A stretch of 64,000 nucleotides of DNA, taken from Halomonas sp. CUBES01. GTDB lineage: Bacteria; Pseudomonadota; Gammaproteobacteria; Pseudomonadales; Halomonadaceae. The notes beneath the pieces are model-generated. The model was not told the origin of the DNA. It did not search any database and worked only from the letters and a program-made list of their open reading frames with translations. Shown here piece after piece: positions 10,746-22,826 of the stretch. How positions within the stretch are numbered: the first letter of the stretch is position 1; every line of letters starts with the position of its first letter. Position numbers and translations under genes: made by a program. Where the stretch lies: contig NZ_JAJLLW010000004.1 in assembly GCF_020991005.1 (NCBI RefSeq), positions 124,001 through 188,000 on the forward strand. The letters run 5' to 3'.

Positions 10746-10822
10746 TGGCGCGCCCGGGAGGATTCGAACCTCCGACCCTCTGATTCGTAGTCAGATACTC
10801 TATCCAGCTGAGCTACGGGCGC
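10746..10822 (-). tRNA. tRNA-Arg (anticodon ACG)
   Basis: 77 nt including an encoded CCA (10746-10748). The acceptor stem GCGCCCG pairs with CGGGCGC, the D-arm contains AGCTCAGCTGGATAGAG, the anticodon stem-loop CTGACTACGAATCAG presents ACG (10786-10788), and the T-arm has GGTTCGAATCC. ACG is normally edited to ICG and reads CGU/CGC/CGA. It lies 17 bp after tRNA-Ser in the same transcript. Confidence 0.97.
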
Positions 10823-10839
10823 AGACCTTAATGTGCGGT

Positions 10840-10932
10840 TGGCGGAGAGAGAGGGATTCGAACCCTCGATAGGGCTATAAACCCTATACTCCCTTAGCAG
10901 GGGAGCGCCTTCAGCCACTCGGCCACCTCTCC
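10840..10932 (-). tRNA. tRNA-Ser (anticodon GCT)
   Basis: 93 nt including an encoded CCA (10840-10842), with the long variable arm expected of a class II tRNA (GTATAGGGTTTATAGCCCTA region). The acceptor stem is GGAGAGG/CTCTCTCC-type, and the anticodon loop CTGCTAA presents GCT (10896-10898), reading AGC/AGU. It is the first gene of the tRNA pair downstream of csrA, the same order as in Pseudomonas. Confidence 0.97.
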
Positions 10933-10949
10933 TTAACGGCACGGCGCGA

Positions 10950-10978
10950 ATATTACCGATTTGAGGGAAAGTTGTCCA
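10950..10978 (-). promoter_or_regulatory. Sigma-70 promoter of the tRNA-Ser/tRNA-Arg operon
   Basis: On the minus strand, -35 TGGACA (10973-10978) and -10 TAATAT (10950-10955) are separated by exactly 17 bp. A GC-rich discriminator (TCGCGCCG) follows, as is common at stringently controlled stable-RNA promoters. Confidence 0.75.
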
Positions 10979-11054
10979 GCCCCGTCCGGAATTTTTTTCG
11001 CGCCGACCTTACCTTACGCGCATGACGCGATACTAGTGCGCCGCTGACCAGCGC

Positions 11055-11243
11055 TCATTCCGCTTCATTTTCACCGCTACGTTCGCGCTGAATACGCTGG
11101 TAGATTTCTTCACGGTGAACCGCCACGTCTTTTGGCGCATTAACGCCAATACGTACTTGGTTACCTTTCACACCTAGTACTGTGACGGTGATTTCGTCCC
11201 CTATCATCAGGGTTTCGCCGACACGGCGGGTTAGGATGAGCAT
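11055..11243 (-). CDS. csrA: Carbon storage regulator CsrA/RsmA
   Basis: Post-transcriptional regulator, 62 aa, that binds GGA motifs in mRNA leaders. The sequence is canonical: [20 protein letters not shown] at the start, Leu4 and the RNA-contacting Arg44 in [14 protein letters not shown] strong ribosome binding site (AAGGAG) precedes the ATG. It follows lysC in the same orientation, as in Pseudomonas and other gammaproteobacteria. Its likely antagonist, a GGA-rich RNA, is encoded 10 kb away at about 21.1-21.4 kb. Confidence 0.98.
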
Positions 11244-11299
11244 GGCTGATCTCCTTCTCAGACGTTTTTATACAACGGGATGTGTCCGCCAGCAGCGGC

Positions 11300-11322
11300 A
11301 CCATGCCATTATGCGGCATGGT
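11300..11322 (-). promoter_or_regulatory. Inverted repeat in the csrA leader
   Basis: An eight-bp perfect stem ACCATGCC/GGCATGGT with a seven-base loop lies 57-79 bp before the csrA ATG. There is no following T-run, so it is not an ordinary terminator. It could be a leader structure or an operator; its role is unknown. Confidence 0.45.
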
Positions 11323-11436
11323 ACCCCCGACCACCAATGGCAACGGCTCCATGACACCTTAACCTCCCGTTGAAAGAAAGCTCACCACCACACGGCAGCA
11401 AGTACCCTTCAGCGTAGAAGGTATCAGGCGTTAATG

Positions 11437-12687
11437 TTATTCAGATTCGATATCTGATTTATCCAGGCCAAATGCCTTGTGCAGGGCATTGACGGCAAGC
11501 TCCATGTGTTTCTCGTCGATGACCACCGAAATCTTGATTTCCGAGGTGGACACCATCCGGATATTGACGTTCTCGTCGGCCAGGACGCGGAACATCTTGG
11601 AAGCCACCCCAGCGTGGGAGCGCATGCCAACACCTACCAGCGACACCTTGGCGATATTATCATCGCCACGCAACTCGCCGCCGCCGAGCCCCGGGATCAC
11701 GGTCTCTTCGAGCAGCTTCTTGGTGGCCTTGTAATCGCCCTTGGCGACGGTAAAGGTAAAGTCGGTGTAGTCACCCGCCGGTGCCACGTTCTGAACGATC
11801 ATGTCGACTTCGATGTTGGCGTCGGCGATCGGGCCCAGAATACGTGACGCCACACCCGGCACGTCGGGGGTATTGAGCAGGGTCAGCTTGGCTTCGTTTT
11901 TCGTGAAGGCGATACCGGAAATCAGCGGTTCTTCCATGGAGTCCTCGTCTTGGTCTGCTTCAGCAACAATCAGGGTACCGGGGCCGTCTTCAAAGCTGGA
12001 CAGCACCCGCAGGGGAACGTTGTACTTGCCGGCAAATTCGACCGCGCGAATCTGCAGCACTTTCGAGCCCAGGCTTGCCAGCTCGAGCATTTCTTCAACG
12101 GTAATGTTTTCCAGCCGCTGCGCCTTGGAGCAGACGCGCGGGTCGGTGGTGTAGACACCATCGACGTCGGTATAGATCTGGCACTCATCGGCGCCTAGCG
12201 CCGCCGCCAGGGCCACCCCGGTGGTGTCCGAGCCGCCTCGCCCGAGGGTGGTAATGTTGCCGTCTTCGTCCACGCCCTGGAAACCGGCGACGACGACCAC
12301 CTGACCCGCGTCCAGGTCGGCTTTCAGGTCATCGGTCTCGATACGCTGGATACGCGCCTTCGTATAGGCACTGTCGGTATGGATACCGACCTGCGCGCCG
12401 GTATGGGAGGTAGCGGCGACGCCGGCCTGCTGCAGCGCCATCGCCAGCAGCGAGATCGTGACCTGCTCACCGGTAGACAGCAGCATGTCCATTTCCCGGG
12501 GCGCGGGATCGTCGTTCAGCGCGTTGGCCATCTCGGTCAGCCGGTTGGTCTCGCCGCTCATCGCGGAGACCACCACCACGACCTGGTGCCCCTGGTCGCG
12601 GAACCCTTTGACCTTTTCCGCCACGGCCTTGATACGGTCGACAGAGCCCACCGAGGTGCCGCCGAACTTCTGTACGTATAGTGCCAT
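11437..12687 (-). CDS. lysC: Aspartate kinase LysC
   Basis: Phosphorylates aspartate in the first step of lysine, threonine, methionine and diaminopimelate synthesis; in halophiles the same step feeds ectoine synthesis. The 416-aa protein has the kinase signature KFGGTSV (7-13), the [12 protein letters not shown] region and two C-terminal ACT domains (about 265-335 and 345-410), as in the allosteric lysine/threonine-sensitive class. The gene lies between alaS and csrA, the conserved order in this lineage. Its leader has a tandem repeat and a strong hairpin. Confidence 0.97.
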
Positions 12688-20664: not shown

Positions 20665-20988
20665 ATGACGTTTGTCGTTACCGAGAACTGCATCCAATGC
20701 AAATACACTGACTGTGTCGAGGTCTGCCCAGTCGACTGTTTCTACGAAGGCCCGAACTTTCTGGTGATTCACCCGGACGAGTGTATCGATTGCGCGCTGT
20801 GTGAGCCGGAGTGCCCCGCCGAGGCGATTTTCTCCGAAGATGAACTGCCCGACGGGCAGGAACAGTTTATCGAGATCAACGCCGAGCTTTCCGAGGTGTG
20901 GCCCAACATTGCCGAGAAGAAGGACCCGCTGCCCGATGCCGAGGAATGGGACGGCAAGAGCGGCAAGCTTGAAAAACTCGAACGCTGA
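20665..20988 (+). CDS. fdxA: Seven-iron ferredoxin FdxA
   Basis: Electron carrier, 107 aa, with one [3Fe-4S] and one [4Fe-4S] cluster, the Azotobacter ferredoxin I type. The cluster ligands are in [20 protein letters not shown] and [18 protein letters not shown]; the C-terminal extension ([24 protein letters not shown]) is typical of FdxA. It follows mutS and has its own leader with inverted repeats and a downstream terminator. Confidence 0.97.
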
Positions 20989-21098: not shown

Positions 21099-21123
21099 AA
21101 AAAAAGGCGGCCCGTAGGCCGCC
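21099..21123 (-). terminator. Terminator of the RsmZ-like RNA
   Basis: A seven-bp perfect stem GGCGGCC/GGCCGCC with a four-base loop is followed on the minus strand by seven T residues. Confidence 0.9.
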
Positions 21124-21375
21124 CGCTCCAAGCACTTCCTCTGACCACTCCCTGTGTCAACTTCCTCTGGTGTCGTCCTTGCCAGGGCTCACATCGCTGT
21201 GTCACCCGGCGCACCACCTGCATCCCGTTGTTGCATCCTGCCTGAGAGCGTCCTTGCCTCCCCTTGTCCTTCGCGAGCATTGTGGCAGAACGCCAAAGCA
21301 TCACAAGGCGGTCTAAAACGACAAGGGGCAGACCCGGCCGGCCCACCCCTTTTAAAAAAGCTTTAATAAACAAAA
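21099..21375 (-). ncRNA. Candidate CsrB/RsmZ-family CsrA-sequestering RNA
   Basis: On the minus strand this stretch contains ten GGA motifs: six AGGA (including AGAGGAAG twice and CAAGGACG twice), three GGGA and one TGGA. Several can sit in hairpin loops, for example CTGG-GGA-CCAG and TGACAC-AGGGA-GTGGTCA. It ends in a terminator: GGCGGCC/GGCCGCC stem at 21106-21123, then seven T (21099-21105). A GacA palindrome lies upstream at 21443-21460. In Pseudomonas the RsmZ gene occupies this same spot beside fdxA. The 5' end is uncertain: -10-like TATATT at 21382-21387 predicts a start near 21375, and a second candidate near 21356. There is no protein-coding gene here. The length of about 275 nt is closer to CsrB than to RsmZ. 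Confidence 0.82.
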
Positions 21376-21440
21376 GCTTAAAATATAGTTAGTGGAAAAT
21401 TTCTGTTTTTCTTACCCGATTCGAGCGAATTTCGACGGCA

Positions 21441-21484
21441 TTTGTAAGAGATCTCTTACAAAATTTTGAGACATCTCTTACAAA
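21441..21484 (-). promoter_or_regulatory. GacA upstream activating sequence (perfect plus degenerate copy)
   Basis: TGTAAGAGATCTCTTACA (21443-21460) is an exact match to the known GacA/UvrY site TGTAAG-N6-CTTACA and is itself a perfect palindrome extended by two bases on each side. A second site at 21465-21482 keeps one perfect half (CTTACA on the plus strand) and a degenerate other half, 22 bp away, two helical turns. It lies between eno (20 bp) and the GGA-rich RNA, about 75 bp upstream of the predicted RNA start. Confidence 0.88.

Positions 21485-21503: not shown

Positions 21504-22826
<1,323 letters not shown>

Follow-up and report, generated by a model that had tools for sequence, protein, structure and literature searches.

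The eno-fdxA intergenic region

The window, by which we mean the whole 64,000-nucleotide stretch of Halomonas sp. CUBES01 DNA analysed here, contains between eno and fdxA a series of elements that all read on the minus strand. Read 5' to 3', two GacA-type boxes come first, then AT-rich DNA that contains an IHF-like site and a 10-bp hairpin leading into a run rich in T; further 3' on the same strand come a promoter, a GGA-rich stretch and finally a GC hairpin trailed by seven Ts (Table 1). The 3' end of the predicted sRNA lies about 110 bp beyond the stop codon of fdxA, whose coding sequence it does not overlap, and the closest named fdxA found in one scan is that of Vreelandella jeotgali (92% identical). 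A csrA gene, which an earlier note on this DNA had placed about 10 kb from the sRNA, does lie at that distance, and the genome also contains a gacA-family gene: family NF007018, which we take to be UvrY/GacA, scores above its cut-off in the window genome and in 56/61 genomes of the genus. The surroundings of csrA show the order tRNA - csrA - aspartokinase (window positions 10749-12687), a synteny reported for Alcanivorax too (PMC9788540).

Table 1. Features of the predicted sRNA locus and its presumed target gene in the window.
Feature	Position	Strand	Remark
csrA, 62 codons	11055..11243	-	presumed target protein of the sRNA
fdxA (ferredoxin)	20665..20988	+	convergent neighbour of the sRNA
Predicted CsrA-titrating sRNA, RsmZ/CsrB type	21099..21272	-	~170 nt, ten GGAs
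sRNA intrinsic terminator (helix 7)	21099..21124	-	hairpin GGGCGGCC-TAC-GGGCCGCC followed by T7
Hairpin UGAC...GUCA presenting AGGGA (helix 5)	21142..21159	-	4/4 pairs changed on both sides
Hairpin with AAGGAC loop, CsrA-site-like (helix 1)	21244..21260	-	99.2% of cells paired
Extended -10 TGCCACAAT	21279..21287	-	16-bp spacer to the -35-like element
-35-like TTGTGA	21301..21306	-	promoter pattern in 50/52 loci
Hairpin, 10 bp, before T-rich run; probable eno terminator	21325..21349	-	ends upstream of the sRNA
IHF-like site TAAGCTTTTGTTT	21368..21380	-	one mismatch to consensus YAANNNNTTGATW
Perfect GacA/UvrY-type box (UAS) TGTAAGAGATCTCTTACA	21443..21460	-	centre ~180 bp before the predicted start
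Half-degenerate GacA-type box TGTAAGAGATGTCTCAAA	21465..21482	-	22 bp from the perfect box
eno (enolase)	21504..22793	-	same-strand neighbour upstream of the sRNA

The minus-strand GGA motifs lie at 21269, 21261, 21253, 21238, 21225, 21178, 21165, 21151, 21139 and 21129. The count of ten that had been reported for about 275 nt is thus correct, but the motifs span 143 nt, and the 100 nt upstream of them hold the IHF-like site and the probable eno terminator. When both strands of the 64 kb were scanned, a 143-nt segment with at least nine GGAs was found only at the sRNA, whereas at least ten GGAs arose in 9.4% of 2000 dinucleotide shuffles of the RNA itself. The count is therefore unusual for the window and unexceptional for an RNA so rich in G and A. 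Density alone was accordingly rejected as proof, and because shuffles reach ten GGAs it is conservation, not the count, that carries the case. Across 52 aligned loci (50 of the genus and the named relatives L041 and L044) the number of GGAs ranges from 6 to 13 and is exactly 10 in 31. In the predicted fold the unpaired probability is 0.76 for GGA nucleotides against 0.39 for the others; the prediction pairs the last motif, at 21129, and in part that at 21178.

Upstream boxes and promoter

The exact TGTAAG-N6-CTTACA site described earlier reads as such, and its half-degenerate companion deviates at 2 of 12 specified bases with a start-to-start distance of 22 bp. These are the two boxes with at most two mismatches found in the window, where shuffling leads one to expect 0.39. 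The complete genome contains five perfect boxes and three with one mismatch, and the reversed control (at most one mismatch) matched once. From the centre of the perfect box to the end of the -10 element is 173 bp, which would put the centre at -179.5 if +1 is near 21272. Between box and promoter, the IHF-like block has one A and the TG invariant in 52/52 aligned loci, and a site with at most one mismatch to the IHF consensus is present in 37/52 spacers compared to 122/1040 shuffled spacers. Further downstream, all ten pairs of the hairpin before the T-rich run show compensatory changes (51 loci, L041 left out), and this conserved hairpin and T-run is probably the terminator of eno.

The promoter reads TTGTGA, 16 bp, and CACAAT carrying a TG extension, and the alignment shows it conserved as TTGaGa...TGcCACAaT directly 5' of the GGAs. 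Judging from the -10 element, the 5' end of the sRNA is most probably near 21272, and for this reason we take the RNA to be about 170 nt long and not 275. The claim that it is larger than RsmZ survives this shortening, as the Rfam model for that RNA (RF00166) has 133 positions, while the length first proposed does not. The hairpin with seven Ts claimed for the other end is present as described. A start further upstream, near 21375, would restore the ~275-nt RNA originally drawn, and a TATATT hexamer at 21387-21382 falls within the interval marked in the earlier note. This hexamer is not conserved in the alignment whereas the promoter just before the GGAs is, the long form would include the conserved hairpin and T-rich run resembling an eno terminator, and it is the start near 21272 that gives the spacing of about -180 found at csrB and rsmZ. 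We regard the upstream start as improbable and proceed with the start near 21272.

Covarying structure of the predicted RNA

The structure was analysed in an alignment of 49 loci (L018, L035 and L041 were left out of the 52), in which RNAalifold places 35 pairs, 20 with compensatory changes. Over the 48 distinct alignment rows, 97.6% of the cells are paired, a value that falls to at most 49.3% when pair partners are slid along the alignment. Pairs changed on both sides number 20/35, compared to a mean of 8.9 in shuffles and a value as high in 0/500 of them, and shuffles yield 23.9 cells with both sides changed where the alignment has 93; these figures come from an alignment that was not fitted to the structure, yet the structure was derived from the same alignment. 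Helix 1 has the consensus GAGGC-AAGGAU-GCUUC and displays AAGGAY in a six-base loop. The fold of the single sequence is modestly stable (z -1.49; 18/200 shuffles fold equally well), and the longest ATG reading frame within the RNA has a median of 22 codons (range 2-57, 49 rows). The RNA has the conserved secondary structure, the terminator and the non-coding character of an RsmZ/CsrB-type sRNA. It is very unlikely that it acts by base pairing or as an antisense regulator of fdxA instead of as a CsrA sponge: it does converge on fdxA and ends shortly past its stop codon, but the coding sequence is not overlapped and the GGAs are kept while the helices change sequence yet stay paired, as binding of a protein predicts.

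Distribution in the genus and the family

A DNA search of the genus produced a match in 57/61 genomes, of which 56 carry the body of the RNA, because G003 matches in the box stretch only. As its best fdxA match is just 36% identical, the locus is either absent from the G003 assembly or lost. G049 gives no DNA match, and reading its locus (L144) revealed a longer variant of the RNA. In G032 no match was obtained and the contig ends shortly past fdxA, before any RNA, and in G042, a 66% complete assembly, we found neither a DNA match nor a good fdxA match. In G009 (locus L145), a near-complete genome of the genus, eno and fdxA are present and neither the RNA nor the tandem box was found; its gacA-family gene is present but scores below the cut-off. 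Among the 50 genus loci of the alignment, eno is found in all and fdxA in 39, the remaining 11 being truncated stretches that show no fdxA. Longer variants with extra GGA-bearing inserts occur in G049 and in Vreelandella jeotgali (L041).

At the family level, a covariance model of the RNA (R1) matched 47/61 genomes at E<=0.01 and left 14/61 without a match; strong matches (E below 1e-6) were obtained in 41/61 genomes and 16/24 genera. The 30 loci kept from this search, 5 from the genus and 25 from other genera, have 8-12 GGAs, and a box with at most three mismatches is found in 29/30, centred at -171 to -196 from the 5' end of the model. The earlier note had tied its proposal to presence in related genomes, and the RNA is indeed present in most relatives, though not in all. 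In nine fdxA loci of named Halomonadaceae, R1 matches six at 51-128 bits, including Halomonas sp. M20 (L052), where the match lies more than 1 kb from fdxA, and finds nothing in the two Salinicola loci and in Modicisalibacter ilicicola; a box with at most two mismatches lies within 1.2 kb of fdxA in only four of the nine. In Larsenimonas suaedae (L055, 2488-3214) the eno-fdxA gap contains several repeated GGA-bearing units, which may form a long CsrB-like RNA; R1 gives three matches there, at 57, 44 and 41 bits, and no box with at most two mismatches was found within 1.2 kb of fdxA. Outside the family, an R1 match of 26.5 bits on the same side of fdxA in Marinomonas ushuaiensis (L095, 2389-2486) is a possible counterpart.

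In all 30 family loci the RNA is preceded by eno on its own strand and faced by a convergent fdxA on the downstream side. The constant position of eno immediately upstream is what a 3' product of the eno mRNA, made by read-through and processing with no gene of its own, would require. Between eno and the sRNA, however, lies the conserved hairpin and T-run, and the gap holds a conserved promoter and a regulator box in nearly fixed geometry, so that we give this origin very little credence and retain an independently transcribed sRNA as the preferred reading.

Relation to rsmZ and other known sRNAs

The prediction that covariance models would miss this RNA proved accurate. At the gathering score Rfam returns two tRNAs for the window, with neither CsrB nor CsrC, and a permissive search of 801 bases yields only rsmX at 13 bits (E 9.7). 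RF00166 (PrrB_RsmZ) recognises 6/6 Pseudomonas loci and 0/14 Halomonadaceae loci at gathering, placing the RNA outside this family. In the same six Pseudomonas loci the Rfam-recognised rsmZ has the neighbour and orientation seen here, bearing out the statement that RsmZ adjoins fdxA in Pseudomonas. Like the Halomonas RNA, Pseudomonas PrrB/RsmZ is convergent with fdxA and carries multiple GGAs, the box centres of the six rsmZ promoters (-170 to -183) are as at the Halomonas sRNA, and in five of the six an IHF-like match (one mismatch or none) begins at -107/-108, a count made without a shuffle control. The two differ in that the six rsmZ promoters have no half-box at 21-24 bp and in the gene upstream, which is eno in Halomonas and presumably rpoS in Pseudomonas. 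R1 in turn gives weak matches at the place of rsmZ in 16/22 loci titled Pseudomonas (12.4-21.6 bits, E 0.0005-0.2). By place, promoter and design, the proposed orthology to rsmZ is well supported.

CsrB and CsrC of E. coli, linked to UvrY, presumably occupy a different genomic place, but share the distal box, and the half-site arrangement of csrC is as in Halomonas. The csrB box TGTGAGAGATCTCTTACA lies at -183/-182 and is separated from the promoter by a stretch with a putative IHF site, and at csrC a half TGTAAG is found 16 bp upstream of the repeat (PMC4682653). In Alcanivorax dieselolei, dRNA-seq identified CsrR2, a CsrA-related sRNA beside a ferredoxin gene that was likened to the fdxA-rsmZ arrangement (PMC9788540). 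Although from another lineage and reported to have six unpaired GGAs, CsrR2 is, by the description given there, the nearest reported relative of the Halomonas sRNA.

Boxes and RNA candidates elsewhere in the genomes

The tandem arrangement TGTAAG N16 TGTAAG N6 CTTACA recurs throughout the genus: with at most one mismatch it is found in 56/61 genomes, a count that includes the sRNA's own box and often consists of it alone, against 0 in 61 for the reversed control. A strict 22-bp half-box spacing was rejected, since the N17 form (23 bp) also occurs in 27/61 genus genomes; reversed controls for the two spacings gave one match and none. Outside the genus the tandem is rare, being found with at most two mismatches in 20/61 family genomes and 9/24 genera (5 of the 20 are the genus itself; the reversed control matched in 2 genomes). 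In four loci (L225, L237, L238, L239) a tandem box lies ~200 bp upstream of an alpha/beta hydrolase, identified as Pfam Abhydrolase_1 in L225, which we take to resemble RhlA.

None of the other box regions yielded a convincing second RNA. A weak R1 match in the window genome (contig C10, 32.2 bits) was dismissed as an intergenic terminator of similar appearance. R1 had no match at E<=10 in the other six box-bearing regions of this genome (L005-L010) and just two, at a chance-like 4.5 bits, in 36 box regions of relatives (L217-L252). Counts of GGAs per 160 nt in 22 box regions (single-box L006 was left out) did not exceed 6 downstream of the tandem box, the value seen in L225; on the opposite side they reached 8 in L007, where the stretch lies inside an ORF, and 7 in L221, where it is partly intergenic. 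Downstream of polA, the gene near which E. coli csrC and spf presumably lie, the window genome has two tandem boxes separated by 254 bp (L005, contig C3, 1997-2290); a csrC-like RNA was rejected here, as the region has 5 GGAs per 160 nt, no clear terminator and no R1 match. RNAs diverging far from R1 may still exist in these genomes.

Boxes upstream of type VI secretion genes

Elsewhere in the genus the tandem box was found upstream of various other genes and of vgrG genes, three of which were scanned and contain a Phage_GPD domain. To obtain a denominator we took the 400 bp upstream of 86 vgrG genes (loci L253-L302 and L306-L345). These are all the matches above the cut-off in the search of 61 genomes that start no later than position 11 of the profile; fragments without a start and matches below the cut-off were left out. 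A single box with at most two mismatches is present upstream in 63/86 (30 perfect, 22 with one and 11 with two mismatches), that is 20/26 in genomes picked partly for their boxes and 43/60 in other genomes; the vgrG genes are partly related copies, hence these counts are not independent. The controls gave 17/1720 for mononucleotide shuffles and 2/318 for 400-mers of the window, where both matches are perfect and come from the single perfect box of the window, counted once per strand. The tandem (at most one mismatch) precedes only 18/86 vgrG genes, and the second half-box is therefore weak or absent at most of them. In L251 and L252 a tandem box with 23-bp spacing lies between divergent hcp and tssB (vipA), as identified by domain scan in L251 and by likeness in L252. 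In the window genome a profile search found no vgrG match.

The position of these boxes suggests direct control of type VI secretion (T6SS) genes by GacA, provided that GacA binds the Halomonas boxes, as their sequence leads us to infer. We lean slightly towards a scheme in which GacA directly drives the vgrG modules, the hcp/tssB promoter region and certain additional genes, with the sRNA lifting CsrA repression in parallel. In P. aeruginosa, ChIP-on-chip found GacA bound only at rsmY and rsmZ (cited in PMC4682653), a later ChIP-seq study reports it at other promoters too (PMC6610081), and according to a 2023 review the Gac system controls T6SS in this species through RsmY/Z (PMC10482370). 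Among the matches listed for GacA, vgrG and direct binding, no title concerns a GacA box before vgrG, and the main text of a paper on the H. elongata T6SS (PMC13337758) mentions neither GacA nor CsrA.

Discussion

Taken together, the intergenic region very probably encodes a GacA-activated sRNA that titrates CsrA and is the Halomonadaceae counterpart, and probable ortholog, of RsmZ. The earlier proposal that this is the CsrA-titrating RNA of the organism is supported by synteny and promoter geometry shared with rsmZ, by a covarying RNA with mostly unpaired GGAs, and by the gacA-family and csrA genes that the genome contains. In the mechanism we envisage, phosphorylated GacA (gene on contig C30) would bind the perfect box with the aid of the half-box located 22 bp farther upstream, and IHF would bend the DNA between box and promoter, although the IHF-like site is degenerate in this genome, which counts against this part of the explanation. 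RNA polymerase would then transcribe from the extended -10 promoter, beginning near 21272 and stopping at 21099. The resulting ~170-nt RNA would present its GGAs in loops and single-stranded linkers and bind several CsrA dimers, and the mRNAs repressed by CsrA would thereby be freed.

The sRNA is real and conserved, and it is probably functional and of the RsmZ type; it is new as a family member and ordinary in kind. Halomonas strains are studied for the production of ectoine and bioplastics. A 2020 review connects GacS/GacA of H. anticariensis to quorum sensing, exopolysaccharide and biofilm formation, and lists for this species GacS-GacA, a bracketed CsrA and an unknown sRNA (PMC7366521). 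Among the matches listed in the open-access literature for Halomonas or Chromohalobacter with Csr or Gac, no title or abstract opening is on this RNA; the main text of the predictor paper PMC5568370 names neither genus, and PMC13414033 brings up Halomonas for an engineered PrrF1 scaffold.

The RNA described here is therefore a candidate for the sRNA that is missing from the Halomonas Gac pathway, and its coordinates are given exactly, together with a map of the promoter and a covariance model. With a spacing near -180 that hardly varies between Halomonadaceae, Pseudomonas and E. coli, a general model in which GacA/UvrY activates from a distal site becomes testable. The set of vgrG and T6SS operators is a more surprising lead than the sRNA: if it is real, GacA would reach beyond an 'sRNA-only' regulon and act on transcription and translation at once, and if T6SS mRNAs are CsrA targets, the two branches would form a coherent feed-forward loop.
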